Of a stretch of 64,000 nt of DNA, positions 5,074 to 49,674 are shown in pieces. How positions within the stretch are numbered: the first letter of the stretch is position 1; each line of letters opens with the position of its first letter. The position numbers were made by a program, and so were the translations under genes. The notes below the pieces were generated by a model. The model searched no databases and had not been told where the DNA came from. It saw only the letters and a program-made list of their open reading frames with translations. Origin of the DNA: Clostridium cylindrosporum DSM 605 (GTDB taxonomy: Bacteria; Bacillota; Clostridia; Clostridiales; Caloramatoraceae). The stretch spans positions 248,001 to 312,000 of the forward strand of contig NZ_LFVU01000027.1 of the NCBI RefSeq assembly GCF_001047375.1, read 5' to 3'.

Positions 5074-5155
5074 TGGTACCACTGGTGGGACTCGAACCCA
5101 CATGGTTTCCCGTTCGATTTTGAGTCGAATGCGTCTGCCGTTCCGCCACAGTGGC
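5074..5155 (-). tRNA. tRNA-Leu(CAA)
   Basis: This is an 82-nt class II tRNA with encoded CCA. The anticodon stem TTCGA/TCGAA holds the loop CTCAAAA, giving anticodon CAA (reads UUG). The T-arm GGGTTCGAGTCCC and the long variable arm are present. The acceptor stem closes with a G1-U72 wobble. Its 5' half, up to just past the anticodon loop, lies inside the 137-bp direct repeat, so the intact gene spans the junction between host DNA and the element. It is kept functional after integration. Confidence 0.93.
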
Positions 5156-5253
5156 ACTACTAGAATATGTTATCATAATTAACCATATGAGTCAATATAA
5201 CTTATTTTCTTATTTGACCGCTACCATTAATAATATATTTAGTAGTAGTAAGT
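5117..5253. repeat. attL, left 137-bp direct repeat
   Basis: This is identical, base for base, to 25566-25702. It holds the 5' half of tRNA-Leu, its promoter, and a copy of the last 53 bases of proA including its stop codon (5202-5253). Identity stops abruptly on the left just past the tRNA anticodon loop and on the right within the proA copy. Confidence 0.93.
5167..5195 (-). promoter_or_regulatory. tRNA-Leu(CAA) promoter (left copy)
   Basis: On the minus strand, TTGACT (5195-5190), a 17-bp spacer and TAACAT (5172-5167) form a strong sigma-A promoter. The tRNA starts 11 nt downstream of the -10 box. The whole promoter lies inside the attachment repeat and is duplicated at 25616-25644. Confidence 0.8.
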
Positions 5254-5346
5254 AACCACTGTTTATATATGTATTGTACGATTGATACCTATATTTAATT
5301 ACAAGTGATTTTAATATATTATATGTAATTTGTCAAGTGTATAAAA

Positions 5347-24449: not shown

Positions 24450-25400
24450 TTATTTACGCCCCCTCATTGTTATTTTTTCTTTATATACATCCATGTTATC
24501 CAATGGATTATATATACTAAAAGTTTTACTTAAATCGGTTGAAAACATATTTACATATCTTCTTACCATTTCCATAGATGAATGACCAAGCATGGTTTGT
24601 AATGAGAATACATCGCCCCCTTCTAAAATCCACTTTTTAGCGAATGTATGTCGCCATCTATGTATTCCAGTTTTCATAACCCCTCTTTTTCTGTTATAAA
24701 ATCTTAGGTGTTGTGATACTGAACCTTCGTCAAGCATATCACCATAAATACCACAAAATAGGTAATCATCATCTTTACCATCCCTTACTTTTAAATACTT
24801 ATATAAAACGTGTTTTAGGGTAGAGGATAGTGGAACAATTTGCCTTTTCCTATTTTTGGTATAGCGATAAGTTATAAGGTTATTATCAAAATCAACATCT
24901 CTGATTTTTACATTTATTATTGTTTTGAATCTACATCCAGTTGCAAGTAGAAAATTGCACATAGCCCAATCTCTATAATCACTAAAAGTACATTTTCTCT
25001 TATCAGGTTCTTTTAGTAGGATTTCAATTTCTGCATCTGTGTAAGTTTCAATAATTGGGGTATCTTGTTTTGGAAGTGTTATTTCAAACTTATCCATATA
25101 ATCTAATTTCATAAAGTAGTTGAATATAGCACGAACCCCTCGGAGCATAGAGTTTATACTTACATCTTTTAAGTTTCTTTCTTTACAATAAAGTATTAAA
25201 TCCTCTATTATAGAAGGAGTTATCTCACTTATTGGAAATTTTGGGTCTAAAACCTTATAGATGTAACCTTCTAAAGTTGCATTATAAAATTTAATTGTAG
25301 CAGGACGAAGGTTTTTAAATTCACAATAAGTTATAAACTCATCTGCACCTCTATCAAGTGTAATATCTTTAGGTGGAGTTATTTTTATTTTCTTCTTCAT
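24450..25400 (-). CDS. int: tyrosine recombinase, integrase of the element
   Basis: This is a 316-residue XerC/phage-type integrase. An N-terminal SAM-like core-binding domain covers about 12-100. The catalytic set is complete: Arg157 (GCRFKT), Lys182, His247 and Arg250 (HRWR), His273 (LGHSS) and Tyr282 (RRYVNM). It would cut within the tRNA-Leu attachment repeat, 166 bp to its right. AGGAGGTG precedes ATG 25400. Its upstream region contains a terminator-like hairpin and, further out, the duplicated tRNA promoter reading towards it. Confidence 0.93.
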   Translation of the reverse strand: MKKKIKITPPKDITLDRGADEFITYCEFKNLRPATIKFYNATLEGYIYKVLDPKFPISEITPSIIEDLILYCKERNLKDVSINSMLRGVRAIFNYFMKLDYMDKFEITLPKQDTPIIETYTDAEIEILLKEPDKRKCTFSDYRDWAMCNFLLATGCRFKTIINVKIRDVDFDNNLITYRYTKNRKRQIVPLSSTLKHVLYKYLKVRDGKDDDYLFCGIYGDMLDEGSVSQHLRFYNRKRGVMKTGIHRWRHTFAKKWILEGGDVFSLQTMLGHSSMEMVRRYVNMFSTDLSKTFSIYNPLDNMDVYKEKITMRGRK

Positions 25401-25431: not shown

Positions 25432-25483
25432 AAAAAAACTCATATACAAGTTTTGATAGTTAAAATCAAAATCGTACATGAGT
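25432..25483 (-). terminator. terminator-like hairpin in integrase leader
   Basis: On the minus strand a nearly complete 19-bp stem (ACTCATGTACGATTTTGAT with ATCAAAACTTGTATATGAGT, few mismatches) is followed by TTTTTTT. It lies between the duplicated tRNA promoter and the integrase start codon, 31 bp before that codon. Confidence 0.7.
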
Positions 25484-25565
25484 TAATACTCTTAATTTAT
25501 TTTGTTGTAATCATTGATAAATCAACGGTGGCGATAGATTATATACTTAGATTATTAAATATATA

Positions 25566-25604
25566 ATTTTGAGTCGAATGCGTCTGCCGTTCCGCCACAG
25601 TGGC
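25566..25604 (-). pseudogene. 5' half of tRNA-Leu(CAA) at attR
   Basis: These 39 nt match the tRNA from its first base through the anticodon loop and one base of the 3' anticodon stem. The rest is missing. It would be transcribed from the adjacent promoter towards the integrase. Confidence 0.88.
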
Positions 25605-25615
25605 ACTACTAGAAT

Positions 25616-25644
25616 ATGTTATCATAATTAACCATATGAGTCAA
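25616..25644 (-). promoter_or_regulatory. tRNA-Leu promoter (right copy) facing integrase
   Basis: Same TTGACT-N17-TAACAT as at 5167-5195. In this copy it lacks a complete tRNA and reads leftward into the element. Confidence 0.75.
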
Positions 25645-25650
25645 TATAAC

Positions 25651-26907
25651 TTATTTTCTTATTTGACCGCTACCATTAATAATATATTTAGTAGTAGTAA
25701 GTTCGGTAAGTCCCATAGGGCCTCTTGCATGAAGCTTTTGTGTACTTATTCCTATTTCAGCACCAAATCCAAATTGGAATCCATCGGTAAATCTGCTTGA
25801 AGCGTTTACATAAACAGCAGCAGCATCAACCTCGGATTGGAACTTTCTACTATTATTATAGTTTTCAGTTACTATTACCTCAGAGTGTTTTGTTCCATAT
25901 TTATATATATGTTCAATTGCTTCATCAATAGAGTCAACTACCTTTACAGAAATAATAAAGTCTAGGAATTCGGTTCCATAATCTTCATCAGTTGCAGGAA
26001 TTGCACCATTAACAAGATTTAGAGTGACATCGCATCCTCTGATTTCAACTCCAAGGTCTTGAAGATCCTTGCATACAGCTGGTAAAAGTTCATTTGCAAC
26101 ATCCTTATGAACAAGTAGTGATTCAGTTGCATTACATACTCCAGGTCTATGTGTCTTACCATTTATAACGATTTTCTTTGCCATTTCTAAATCAGCAGAA
26201 GAATCCACATAAACGTGGCAGTTACCAGTACCTGTTTCTATTACTGGAACGGTTGAATTTTCAACAACTGTCTTTATAAGACCAGCTCCACCACGAGGTA
26301 TAATCACATCTAGATAGTCATTAAGTTTAAGCATTACATTTACTGCTTCTCTATCAGTTACATCAATAAATTGAATTGCACCATTTGGAATTCCAGCTTC
26401 ATATGCATATTTTGATATAACTTCAATTATAGCTATGTTAGAGTTTATAGCCTCAGAGCCACCTCTTAAAACAACAGCATTGCCTGACTTTAAGCAAAGC
26501 CCAGCTGCATCAACTGTAACGTTTGGTCTTGCTTCATATATTATTCCTATAACTCCAAGTGGAACTCTTACTCTTCCTATTTGAAGTCCATCTGCATTTA
26601 ATTGCATTCCTAAAACTTCTCCAATTGGATCCTTTAAGGCTACTAGCTGTTCTAGACCAATTGCCATATCATTTATACGATTTTCATCTAGCATTAGTCT
26701 ATCAAGTAGAGCTGGAGAAAGTCCCTTAGCCTCACCATTTTTTAAGTCCTTTGAGTTAGCTGAAACTATCTTTTCTGCATTTTCACGAAGTCCTTTAGCC
26801 ATATTTAAAAGAGCGTTGTTTTTAATGTCAGTAGAAATAGAAGAAAGCTTTCTGGCAGCTTCCTTAGAAACACTAGTTTTAGAAATTATAGATTCTCTAA
26901 TGTTCAT
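25651..26907 (-). CDS. proA: glutamate-5-semialdehyde dehydrogenase
   Basis: This 418-residue enzyme reduces gamma-glutamyl phosphate to glutamate semialdehyde with NADPH, the second step of proline synthesis. It shows the family's catalytic cysteine region (RPGVCNATES, about residues 250-260), a conserved PRGGAGL loop and the C-terminal GPMGL segment. It is the second gene of proBA, 27 bp after proB. Its last 53 bases lie inside attR and are intact. Before integration it was followed by tRNA-Leu on the same strand. Confidence 0.96.
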   Translation of the reverse strand: MNIRESIISKTSVSKEAARKLSSISTDIKNNALLNMAKGLRENAEKIVSANSKDLKNGEAKGLSPALLDRLMLDENRINDMAIGLEQLVALKDPIGEVLGMQLNADGLQIGRVRVPLGVIGIIYEARPNVTVDAAGLCLKSGNAVVLRGGSEAINSNIAIIEVISKYAYEAGIPNGAIQFIDVTDREAVNVMLKLNDYLDVIIPRGGAGLIKTVVENSTVPVIETGTGNCHVYVDSSADLEMAKKIVINGKTHRPGVCNATESLLVHKDVANELLPAVCKDLQDLGVEIRGCDVTLNLVNGAIPATDEDYGTEFLDFIISVKVVDSIDEAIEHIYKYGTKHSEVIVTENYNNSRKFQSEVDAAAVYVNASSRFTDGFQFGFGAEIGISTQKLHARGPMGLTELTTTKYIINGSGQIRK

Positions 26908-44344: not shown

Positions 44345-44373
44345 TATTAGAGTACAAATAAAGGTGATATAAT

Positions 44374-46932
44374 ATGAAAAAAGAAATAACAAGAATAACA
44401 TCCTTTACAGTAGTAATTATTATGATCTTTTCCATACTTATAGCAAGGCTTTTTTACGTACAGTTATTTAAAGGGGATTATTATAAAAGTCTTGCAGAGG
44501 AAAAGGGTGAAAAGGAAATTATTAGACCTGCACCTAGAGGAGAAATTGTTGACAGGAACGGAGAAAAAATAGCAACTAGTAAACAAGGGTTTAATATAAC
44601 ATTCTCAAACTATCAAAAAAAAGGTAAAGAAAAAAAAGAGGTTTATAATGAAAGAATAAATAAAGCATTAGTTGAAACTCTTCAAATTATTACTAAAAAT
44701 GCAGATCTAGATAAGTTGAACCTTTCTGCTATTCCTATAGCAATTGAAGGGAATAATTATGTATACAACTTTACTGCAACTAGTAATACTTTACGTGCAA
44801 AACTAGAGAAAAATCTTAAGAAGGCTTATGATCTTGATAAAATAGAAGAGAAGTCAAATATAAAACTTGATGCAAAGGGTGTTATAAGAGAACTTGGAAA
44901 GAAGTATGGACTGTTAGATGAAAACACCGGTGAAAATATTTACAAGGTTTCTCAAATCGAGCTTTTGCAGTTAGTATCATTAAGAGCAGCTATTAGTAGC
45001 GTTTCCTTTTCTCAATATAAAACAGTTTATATTGCAAAAAATGTTAAAAAAGAGACTGCATTTGCTATTATGTATAAAGGCTCAGAACTTCCAGGTATCT
45101 CAAATGAGGTGGCTCCAATCAGGGAGTATCCAAATGGTGAAGTAGGGTCAGCTTTCTTAGGGTATCTTGGGAAGATTAGTGAGGATTCCGCTGAGGAATA
45201 TAAAAATCTTGGATATGATATAAATAGAGAGTTAATTGGAAGATTAGGCCTTGAAAAGTCATTGGAAAACAATAGAGACCTTGGAATAAACTTAAGAGGG
45301 GAGCCTGGAGTTAGATACGTAAATGTAGATAAGTTCGGTCAAATAACAAAGGAAACGGCAACTCTTGATCCAATTCCAGGTGATACTGTAAAAACTACAA
45401 TAGATATTAATCTTCAAAAGGTAGCAGAAGAATCACTTGATAAAACAATGGAAAGCATTAGAGGAAAGTCAAAGGGTGGAAATGCTAAAAGAGGAGCAGC
45501 TATTGTAACAGATGTTAAAACAGGAGAAATTCTTGCGCTAGCTAGTAGACCAGGGTTTGATCCTAATGTGTTTGCACAAACAGGTGCAATTGCAGATCCT
45601 GAAATATACAAAAAGTATTTTGTACCTGAGAAAAATGAGGGGGATAAGGCGGATCTTATTCCTGCACCTATGTTTAATTATGCAACTAAGGGAGCTATAC
45701 CACCGGGGTCAATACTTAAGCCATTTGTAGGGATTGCAGGCCTTGAAGAAGGAGTAGTAAATCCAAGTACAATTGTTGTGGATAAAGGTGGACCTTTCGA
45801 TAAGATAAAAGGATTTAAAGGTGCTTGTTGGATTTGGAACACGAAAAGAGGAAGTCATGGACCTGTAAATGTATCTCAGGCACTAGAGGTTTCATGTAAT
45901 ATATACTTCTTTGAAGTAGGAAGACTTTTAGGATATGAGAGATTCTCTAAATGGGCAGCTAAATTTGGTTTTGCATCGGATCCTAAAACAGGAGAAAAGC
46001 CAAAGTCAGGTATAGAGATTGAAGAGTCTCCAGGAGAAGTTGGAAGTGATGTGAAGTATAAGAAGACTAATCTTTCAATATTCTTAAATGATATATCAGA
46101 TAAGATTTCAGGTATTGAGTATGGTGGATATACTATAACAAAGGGAACTGATGAGTATAAGGCCATTCAAGATATGATTGATAAGGGGCAGTACGATAAA
46201 ACAAAACTTGAGTCAATAGGAGTTACAAATCTTAAGGCACAAAGATATATTAAGCAAAAGATTGCAGAATTTAAGAGTAATGCTAATAATGTTGGACAGC
46301 TTCTAAGTGTATCAATAGGGCAAGGGTCAACACTACTTACTCCACTACAAATGATTGGTGCACTAAATACTCTTTTAAATGATGGTAAAAGATATTCTAC
46401 TCATCTTGTTAAAGAAGTTCTTAATCCAGATGGAACAGTAAAAAGAGAAATAGCTCCAGAGCTTCTAGAAGAATTTAAAATATCCCCTGAAAATAAAGAT
46501 GCAATTCTTAAGGGGATGTCTAAGGTTACTTCAGGTGAGCATGGTACAGCGGCATCAACATTTAGAGGATTTAATATTCCAACAGGAGGAAAAACAGGTA
46601 GTGCATCTGTTCCACCTTCACAGAAAGAAAAAGGAAGAGATGCATACGGATGGTTCCTTGGTTTTGCACCATATGAGGATCCACAAATATCTGTCGTTGT
46701 TGTAATTTATGATGCAGGAAGTGGTAGTTTTTCTGCACCTGTTGCAAGGGATATATATGAACAATATTTTGGACTTAATAAAAAGGATGACAAAAAGAGT
46801 GATAATGGAGAGGTTAATAAAACAGCTCCTTTAAATGAAAGTGAAGCTGCATATCAAGGTGTACAAACCCAAGGGAATGTACAAAACGGCTCTACAAAAA
46901 AGCAAGACACAGGAAATATTAACAATAGATAA
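44374..46932 (+). CDS. mrdA: penicillin-binding protein 2, copy 1
   Basis: This 852-residue class B PBP cross-links peptidoglycan during elongation. It has an N-terminal anchor (about 10-30) and a dimerisation domain (RPAPRGEIVDRNG). The transpeptidase domain shows Ser446-x-x-Lys449 (GSILKPF), SCN and KTG at 740-742. The C-terminus is polar. It follows mreD by 29 bp. A second, very similar gene lies downstream. Confidence 0.95.
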   Translation: MKKEITRITSFTVVIIMIFSILIARLFYVQLFKGDYYKSLAEEKGEKEIIRPAPRGEIVDRNGEKIATSKQGFNITFSNYQKKGKEKKEVYNERINKALVETLQIITKNADLDKLNLSAIPIAIEGNNYVYNFTATSNTLRAKLEKNLKKAYDLDKIEEKSNIKLDAKGVIRELGKKYGLLDENTGENIYKVSQIELLQLVSLRAAISSVSFSQYKTVYIAKNVKKETAFAIMYKGSELPGISNEVAPIREYPNGEVGSAFLGYLGKISEDSAEEYKNLGYDINRELIGRLGLEKSLENNRDLGINLRGEPGVRYVNVDKFGQITKETATLDPIPGDTVKTTIDINLQKVAEESLDKTMESIRGKSKGGNAKRGAAIVTDVKTGEILALASRPGFDPNVFAQTGAIADPEIYKKYFVPEKNEGDKADLIPAPMFNYATKGAIPPGSILKPFVGIAGLEEGVVNPSTIVVDKGGPFDKIKGFKGACWIWNTKRGSHGPVNVSQALEVSCNIYFFEVGRLLGYERFSKWAAKFGFASDPKTGEKPKSGIEIEESPGEVGSDVKYKKTNLSIFLNDISDKISGIEYGGYTITKGTDEYKAIQDMIDKGQYDKTKLESIGVTNLKAQRYIKQKIAEFKSNANNVGQLLSVSIGQGSTLLTPLQMIGALNTLLNDGKRYSTHLVKEVLNPDGTVKREIAPELLEEFKISPENKDAILKGMSKVTSGEHGTAASTFRGFNIPTGGKTGSASVPPSQKEKGRDAYGWFLGFAPYEDPQISVVVVIYDAGSGSFSAPVARDIYEQYFGLNKKDDKKSDNGEVNKTAPLNESEAAYQGVQTQGNVQNGSTKKQDTGNINNR

Positions 46933-46960: not shown

Positions 46961-47157
46961 TCTATTATTGTAAAAAAATGCTACATAGTATATAGTATTT
47001 GTATACATTACAAAAGCTTAGATTGTATAACGTTTATGCAAAGAATGCCTATTTAAGCGACTAAGGCTTTAAGTATTCTAAGTGAAGAAAATGCACTTGA
47101 ATTTATACAAGGAGAATGAAGGTTCTAATAAAAAGTATAAAGTAAAGGTGATATAAC

Positions 47158-49674
47158 ATGAAAAAAGAAATAACAAGAATTACATCTTTTTCGGTAGTAG
47201 TTATTATGATATTTTCAATACTAATAGCTAGACTTTTTTATGTTCAAGTAGTAAAGGGATATTATTATAAAAGTCTTGCAGAAGAAAAAGGTGAAAAAGA
47301 AATTATTAGACCTGCACCTAGAGGTGAAATCCATGATAAAAATGGCAAGAAAATAGCAATTAATGAGCAAGGATTTAATATAACTTTTTCAAACTACGTA
47401 AAAAAAGGTAAGGAGAAGAAAGATATAACAAATAAAAGAATTAACAAAGCATTAATTGAAACCATAAGAATAATTACAAAGAACTCGGATTCAGATAAGT
47501 TAAATCTATCTTCTCTTCCTATAGTACTTGAGGGAAATAATTATGTATATAATTTTACAGCAACAAGCAATACTCTTCGTGCTAAGCTTGAAAAAAACCT
47601 TAAAAAGGCATATGAGCTTGATGAAATAGAAGATGATAGAAAAACTAAGTTAGATGCAAAGGGTGTTGTAAAAGAGCTTGGAATAAAATATGGACTAATA
47701 GATGAAGGGAGTAATCAATACATCTATGAGGTTTCTAATGTAGAATTTCTACAGCTAGTATCAATAAGGGCGGCTATAAGTGATGTTTCTTATTCACAGT
47801 ATAAAACAGTTTATATTGCAAAGAATGTAAAAAAAGAAACAGCCTTTGCGATTATGCATAAAGGTTCGGAACTTCCAGGAATTTTAAGTGATGTATCTCC
47901 AATACGTAGGTATCCATATAAAGAAGTAGGTTCGGCCTTTCTGGGGTACTTAGGTAAAATAAGTGAAGAATCATCTGAGGAGTATAAAAATCTTGGATAT
48001 GATATAAATAGAGAACTAATTGGAAAATTAGGTCTTGAAAAGTCCTTAGAAAACAACAGAGACCTTGGAATAAATTTAAGAGGAGAGCCTGGAGTTAGAT
48101 ATGTAAACGTAGATAAGTTTGGTCAAATAACAAAGGAAACAGCAACTCTTGACCCAATTCCTGGAGATACTGTAAAAACAACAATAGATATCAACCTTCA
48201 AAAAGTAGCTGAAGAGTCACTTGATAGAACTATGGAAAATATTAGAGGGAAGTCAAATGGAGGTAATGCTAAAAGAGGAGTAGCTATTGTAACTGAGGTT
48301 AAAACAGGGGCAGTTCTAGCTTTAGCTAGCAGACCAGGATTTGATCCTAATGTTTTTGCACAAACAGGTGCAATTGCAGATCCTGAAATTTATAAAAAGT
48401 ATTTTGTACCGGAAAAGAATCAAGGCGATAAAGCAGATGTCATACCAGCTCCTATGTTTAATTATGCAACTAAGGGAGCGATACCTCCAGGATCCATACT
48501 TAAACCTTTTGTAGGTATTGCGGGTCTTGAGGAAGGTGTAGTTACTCCTAGTATAACTGTTTTAGATAAAGGTGGGCATTTTGATAAGGTAAAGGGCTTT
48601 GAAGGAGCTTGTTGGATTTGGAACACAAAAAGAGGAAGTCATGGGGCCCTAAATGTATCACAGGCTCTAGAGGTATCTTGTAACATCTACTTTTTTGAAG
48701 TAGGAAGGCTCCTAGGCTATGAAAGATTCTCGAAATGGGCAGCTAAGTTTGGTTTTGCATCGGATCCTATAACAGGAGAAAAGCCAAAGTCAGGAATAGA
48801 GATAGAAGAATTACCTGGAGAAGTTGGAAGTAACATTAGATTTAAGAAAACCAACATTGCTATATATTTAAATAACATAACCGATAAAATTTCTGGAATT
48901 GAGTATGGTGGTTATACGATAACTAAGGGAACAGATGAATATAGAGCAATTCAAGATATGCTGGATAAGGGCCAATATGACAAATCTAAACTTGAGGCAA
49001 TAGGAATAACTAACCCTAAGTCTCAAAGATATATTAATTTAAAGGTTTCAGAATTTAAAAAGAAAGCTAATAGGGTTGGAGAACTTTTAAATGTATCTAT
49101 AGGACAAGGATCAACGGTACTTACGCCACTACAAATGATAGGGGCATTAAATACTCTATTAAATGATGGCAAAAGATATTCTACTCATCTTGTTAAAGCC
49201 GTTCTTAACCTAGATGGAACAGTAAAAAGAGAAATTATACCAGAAGTTCTTGAAGAGTTTAAAATATCTCCTGAAAATAAAGAAGCCATATTAAAGGGTA
49301 TGTCTAAGGTTACCTCAGGTGACCATGGTACCGCTGCATCAACTTTTAAAGGGTTTAGCATAGATACGGGTGGAAAGACTGGTAGTGCATCTGTTCCAAA
49401 GCCTCTAAAAGCAAAGGGAAGAGATGCCTATGGATGGTTTCTTGGCTTTGCACCATATGACAATCCCAAAATATCTGTTGTAGTAGTAATATATGATGCA
49501 GGAAGTGGGAGTTTTGTAGCTCCTGTTGCAAAGGATATATATGAGCAGTATTTTGAATTAAATAAAAATAATAATAAAGAAACTCCATTAAATGAAAGTG
49601 AAGCTGCCTATAGAGGAGCAGAAAGAAAAGTGGGAAATGGAGAAAATTCATCTAATAATAGTGGAGAAAATTAA
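47158..49674 (+). CDS. penicillin-binding protein 2, copy 2
   Basis: This 838-residue protein is a tandem paralogue of the preceding PBP2 and matches it residue for residue over long stretches. All active-site motifs are kept (GSILKPF, EVSCN, GGKTGSAS). Differences cluster in the N-terminal non-catalytic half and the C-terminal tail. The leader AAAGGTGATATAACATG is nearly the same as in copy 1, so the duplication included the ribosome site. The two may differ in timing, for example growth versus sporulation, but that is inference. Confidence 0.93.
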   Translation: MKKEITRITSFSVVVIMIFSILIARLFYVQVVKGYYYKSLAEEKGEKEIIRPAPRGEIHDKNGKKIAINEQGFNITFSNYVKKGKEKKDITNKRINKALIETIRIITKNSDSDKLNLSSLPIVLEGNNYVYNFTATSNTLRAKLEKNLKKAYELDEIEDDRKTKLDAKGVVKELGIKYGLIDEGSNQYIYEVSNVEFLQLVSIRAAISDVSYSQYKTVYIAKNVKKETAFAIMHKGSELPGILSDVSPIRRYPYKEVGSAFLGYLGKISEESSEEYKNLGYDINRELIGKLGLEKSLENNRDLGINLRGEPGVRYVNVDKFGQITKETATLDPIPGDTVKTTIDINLQKVAEESLDRTMENIRGKSNGGNAKRGVAIVTEVKTGAVLALASRPGFDPNVFAQTGAIADPEIYKKYFVPEKNQGDKADVIPAPMFNYATKGAIPPGSILKPFVGIAGLEEGVVTPSITVLDKGGHFDKVKGFEGACWIWNTKRGSHGALNVSQALEVSCNIYFFEVGRLLGYERFSKWAAKFGFASDPITGEKPKSGIEIEELPGEVGSNIRFKKTNIAIYLNNITDKISGIEYGGYTITKGTDEYRAIQDMLDKGQYDKSKLEAIGITNPKSQRYINLKVSEFKKKANRVGELLNVSIGQGSTVLTPLQMIGALNTLLNDGKRYSTHLVKAVLNLDGTVKREIIPEVLEEFKISPENKEAILKGMSKVTSGDHGTAASTFKGFSIDTGGKTGSASVPKPLKAKGRDAYGWFLGFAPYDNPKISVVVVIYDAGSGSFVAPVAKDIYEQYFELNKNNNKETPLNESEAAYRGAERKVGNGENSSNNSGEN

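Follow-up and report, generated by a model that had tools for sequence, protein, structure and literature searches.

We analysed a 64-kb window (64,000 nt) of the draft genome of Clostridium cylindrosporum DSM 605, in which a phage-like element is bordered by two copies of a direct repeat. The copies, at 5117-5253 and 25566-25702, are identical at 137 of 137 bp. They are the only two in the window, and no third copy was found in the 2.7-Mb draft genome (28 contigs). Since the longest repeat expected by chance in 64 kb of the window's composition is estimated at ~17 bp, a repeat of 137 bp is not due to chance. The features of the locus, in window coordinates, are as follows.

5074-5155, minus strand: complete tRNA-Leu(CAA) at the far (attL) end (ARAGORN)
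5113-5129, minus strand: anticodon stem-loop TTCGA-CTCAAAA-TCGAA, putative core site with a 7-bp overlap at 5118-5124 (from its symmetry and the repeat ends of homologs)
5117-5253, no strand: attL copy of the 137-bp repeat (exact repeat)
5167-5195, minus strand: sigma-A-like promoter candidate of the tRNA, TTGACT-17-TAACAT, within the repeat (9/12 match)
5202-5253, minus strand: relic of the proA 3′ end, 52 bp, in the attL copy (repeat identity)
5254-25565, no strand: phage-like element between the repeats, 20.3 kb (gene content)
5308-5336, minus strand: promoter-like TTGACA-17-TAAAAT in the element end, directed towards the tRNA (11/12, shuffle P 0.011)
24450-25400, minus strand: tyrosine integrase, 316 aa (PF00589, 7.7e-27; PHROG integrase, 2.3e-41)
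25566-25702, no strand: attR copy of the repeat, with the tRNA-Leu 5′ half (25566-25604), the promoter region and the proA end
25651-26907, minus strand: intact proA in the chromosomal flank (PF00171)

Read on the minus strand, the repeat opens with the final 52 bp of proA, continues with a 46-bp spacer and closes with nucleotides 1-39 of tRNA-Leu(CAA). An earlier note on this DNA had described the 137-bp identity, which is borne out by the two perfect copies, but had let it begin past the anticodon loop and extend over 53 bp of proA. Instead, the identity includes the whole 7-nt loop (5118-5124) and stops one base beyond it, in the 3′ stem (5117), while the shared part of proA (25651-25702), which includes the stop codon, measures 52 bp. 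The same note had the repeat run through the tRNA promoter, and the candidate TTGACT-17-TAACAT does lie within it, in the stretch that separates the tRNA from the proA stop codon. Complete proA and proB genes are found to the right of the inner repeat copy. Of the leucine tRNAs read in this genome, only the one at 5074-5155 has a CAA anticodon. As in other tRNA-targeting elements, both copies of the repeat include a stretch of tRNA sequence, and at one end the tRNA is complete. The polarity is that of the 5′-restoring subclass, with a 5′ fragment on the integrase side and a far-end tRNA whose 5′ part faces the element. In a draft of 28 contigs one might suspect that the repeat arose as an assembly or sequencing duplication. 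We find this hardly credible, for the copies have distinct unique flanks and coincide with the boundaries of the integrase and the tRNA, and the layout is seen again in independent genomes.

The element encodes a head scaffolding protein, a major head protein, a terminase, an SPP1-like portal, a replication initiator and the integrase, the start of which is 165 bp from the inner repeat copy. The integrase has the PF00589 catalytic domain of tyrosine recombinases. Residues R157, K182, H247, R250, H273 and Y282 are invariant in the alignment of its family and are presumably the catalytic R..K..HxxR..H..Y positions. A search of viral collections yielded just two relatives, an integrase and a terminase, both distant, and no exact match to the left junction of the element. 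Despite the presence of scaffold, major head protein, terminase and portal, no tail or tape-measure gene was recognisable in the 20-kb element, which could be either a phage with a short tail or a satellite that forms capsids.

Because the window alone cannot place the crossover, relatives of the integrase were used. A homolog search of 391 class-level genomes gave a best identity of 51%, and a 12-member integrase alignment, scanned against 84,980 species genomes, gave 79 loci. Three homologs have both ends visible, and their repeats (63, 48 and 59 bp) extend from the anticodon stem to the tRNA 3′ end. The starting point of these repeats indicates that the tRNA-targeting members of the family are anticodon-loop integrases. 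The identity block in the window is bounded at a symmetric stem-loop with a 7-bp loop, TTCGA-CTCAAAA-TCGAA, which is the only perfect 5-7-5 symmetric core within the repeat; the suggestion made earlier that the anticodon stem TTCGA/TCGAA is the core inverted repeat agrees with this. Judged from the homolog geometry and the position of this core, the crossover most likely lies in the anticodon loop. The integrase-side half-site of attP, AATTATATATT, differs from the tRNA stem and counts against a crossover in the loop.

The window integrase also belongs with a clade whose target is the 3′ part of a protein gene, a grouping that makes proA a conceivable target. The crossover would then lie in the last 52 bp of proA, restoration would be of the usual 3′ kind and the tRNA half would be passive. 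Such a geometry fits the integrase beside a complete proA and the proA tail at the far end, and near the window there is a clade, of 32 homologs, whose members restore a GGGtGRT-family gene at its 3′ end. We nevertheless consider proA an unlikely target, as the end of the repeat at the anticodon loop would be accidental, the nearest homologs use tRNA genes and the proA tail has no 5-7-5 symmetric core. An inverted repeat upstream of the integrase resembles the tRNA core, and at least four other elements show the 5′-tRNA geometry with no protein gene involved. Among relatives of the window's genome from other genera, no empty site was found, neither proA nor the helicase gene being seen beside tRNA-Leu.

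Perfect identity over 137 bp suffices for low-level homologous recombination, and the element could in principle have entered by RecA, across homology that its circular phage genome already carried, without any part played by the integrase. This route appears very improbable to us: the integrase is intact and close to the junction, and the identity boundary falls at the anticodon loop, as it does in the integrase homologs.

The inverted repeat upstream of the integrase, at 25437-25484, has arms similar to the target tRNA in its loop and 3′ stem. Comparable inverted repeats are found upstream of the integrases of L063-L162, each resembling the target of its own element. The match to the element's own target exceeded that to re-paired targets in 20,000 of 20,000 permutations (n = 40, mean 8.2 versus 6.4, uncorrected for relatedness), and it lay within the inverted-repeat arms in 24 of the 40. 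As the integrase is short, without an obvious separate arm-binding domain, the inverted repeats could act as additional core-type sites or as an operator.

In order to compare insertion polarity, we classified 87 non-redundant integrases, including that of the window. A full tRNA beside the integrase, the usual 3′ restoration, was found for 38 and the 3′ end of a GGGtGRT-family protein gene for 32. Seven have the 5′ part of a tRNA alone beside the integrase and four the 3′ part alone; the other six were left unassigned. The 5′-type members are the window, L077 (Thr), L085 (Ser), L107 (Arg), L138 (Leu), L136 (Arg) and L155 (Lys). For the first five, the same contig also carries a complete tRNA, at the far end of the element and at a distance of 3.4 to 20 kb. 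L155 and L136 were called from the integrase side alone, with candidate far ends on other contigs, and the tRNA at the candidate far end of L136 appears degenerate. The uninterrupted tRNA-Val/tRNA-Thr site of the L077 element was found in two congeners (G441 and G440), which confirms that this element split tRNA-Thr and restored it at its far end. G438, a candidate 5′-type element at the tRNA-Val/Thr site, was dropped as it has neither a related integrase nor a clean tRNA 5′ half beside tRNA-Val. On the integrase tree, a quick tree with some long branches, the 5′ type requires six changes, at least five of them on well-supported branches. Polarity has therefore switched repeatedly in this family.

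Several arrangements at other loci were noted. L150 was kept in the 3′ class despite a tRNA-Thr 5′ half, cut at the anticodon loop, ~350-385 bp upstream of its integrase and ~80 bp ahead of the complete tRNA-Thr that borders the integrase; this half is possibly a remnant of an older tandem 5′-type insertion. L088, L105, L111 and L069 have only the 3′ part of a tRNA beside the integrase, without a 5′ half, and are tandem arrays or rearranged sites (L068 and L069 form a tandem at tRNA-Ser). L097, L102, L104, L106 and others make up the well-supported integrase clade at the 3′ end of the GGGtGRT gene (PF14057, function unknown), the C-terminal end of which is apparently restored. The gene considered as a grdA target belongs to the Pfam family GGGtGRT, and grdA was dropped.

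The repeats of the 5′-type elements are graded in length and identity. The long ones measure 137 bp at 100% (window), 387 bp at 92% (L136) and ~300 bp at 71% (L138), and those of L077, L085, L107 and L155 measure 41-70 bp and lie within the tRNA only. We infer that 5′-type attP sites arise by capture of the host flank upstream of a tRNA and then decay to the part that is needed. The attP of the window would be the youngest of the set, its useless 52-bp proA tail being still identical. With no evident use, this tail points to a fairly recent capture of upstream host flank and looks like passive sequence. The earlier note called the repeat long for a tyrosine integrase site; the excess is probably captured flank and not a long integrase site.

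An element that restores the 5′ side has to bring expression signals with it. We therefore searched the 150 bp ahead of each far-end tRNA for sigma-A-like matches. In the window, the candidate inside the repeat (9/12) is at the right distance and has a TG before the -10, yet does not exceed shuffled AT-rich sequence; the better match is TTGACA-17-TAAAAT in the element end. The best matches in the relatives were 12/12 for L138, 11/12 for L107 and 10/12 for L077, while that of L085 (9/12) was no better than shuffles. L136 and L155 gave 11/12 and 12/12, less secure values since their far ends are on separate contigs. In L107, tRNA-Val and tRNA-Asp come after the restored tRNA, and the rest of the operon may therefore depend on the predicted promoter of the element. 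In L077, tRNA-Thr is separated from the tRNA-Val promoter. These arrangements suggest, at the level of sequence, that the tRNAs may be expressed from promoters carried by the elements.

Taken together, the element was very probably inserted by its tyrosine integrase at the anticodon loop of tRNA-Leu(CAA), in a 5′-restoring manner and with an attP that carried a captured proA tail. The junctions suggest that the order before insertion was proB-proA-tRNA-Leu-helicase. The integrase would have recombined the element into tRNA-Leu(CAA), with strand exchange presumably in the 7-bp anticodon loop, and the integrase side would be left with proA and a dead tRNA 5′ half. In the far-side tRNA, the 3′ half would be host DNA, and the 5′ half and promoter region would come from the element attP, which would also have brought the 52 bp of the proA tail. 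In older relatives, decay would have left nothing of the flank but the tRNA 5′ part, and the element end usually carries a separate promoter-like sequence. That the element re-supplies the 5′ half and promoter of the tRNA, as the earlier note proposed, is supported by the intact integrase beside the inner copy, by the homologs of reversed geometry and by the single symmetric core in the repeat, while the weak score of the promoter candidate in the repeat counts against it. A broader proposal, which we offer tentatively and regard as rather doubtful, is that attP flips repeatedly from 3′- to 5′-restoring by flank capture, that host tRNAs, at times together with the tRNAs behind them in an operon (Arg-Val-Asp in L107), thereby come under element promoters and that the inverted repeats upstream of the integrases, each matching the target of its own element, are extra integrase-binding sites.

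Most tRNA-targeting elements carry the 3′ part of the tRNA, as the earlier note assumed. Table 1 of Islander lists 3,760 islands with a 3′ tDNA fragment (~96%) and 159 with a 5′ fragment, for a total of 3,919 (PMC4383910). The 5′-fragment islands resemble the window in that the 5′ part of the tDNA is displaced and the 5′ side is restored by the island, and many are centred on the anticodon. Promoters go unmentioned in the Islander text (PMC4383910). The window differs in that its one integrase family shows repeated switching and graded flank capture. Archaeal pTN3-like integrases have the 5′ half of tRNA-Leu as attB, with the crossover extrapolated to the anticodon loop (PMC5495485; PMC8371274). 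They share with the window this choice of site and a rebuilt tRNA that is severed from its original promoter. However, integration of pTN3 splits its integrase gene, while the window integrase is unsplit, its complete 316-aa frame lying inside the element at the other end. The pTN3 tRNA is expressed from the integrase promoter, whereas the window repeat carries the candidate promoter region of the tRNA itself, and the shared segments are 41 bp for pTN3 and 137 bp for the window. The usual 3′-restoring anticodon-loop elements have the same integrase family and target substructure as the window, with the integrase beside and in line with the tRNA; unlike the window element, they bring the tRNA 3′ half and leave the promoter and 5′ half to the host. 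In view of the Islander and pTN3 precedents, the window belongs to a rare but known 5′-restoring class.

In the literature searched, we found no earlier description of repeated polarity switching within one bacterial integrase family, as the present comparison suggests, nor of promoter-like sequences at the ends of bacterial elements. The window is a clear, recent-looking case for the small class in which a mobile element, and not the host, would supply the expression signals of a tRNA. With both modes and graded captured flanks in one family, a change in the side of the attachment site is directly testable, as is whether such elements set host tRNA levels.

Elsewhere in the window, a 300-nt direct repeat (82%; 44356-44655 versus 47140-47439) links two adjacent ORFs, 44374-46932 (852 aa) and 47158-49674 (838 aa). 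These ORFs are a tandem gene duplication unrelated to the tRNA insertion.
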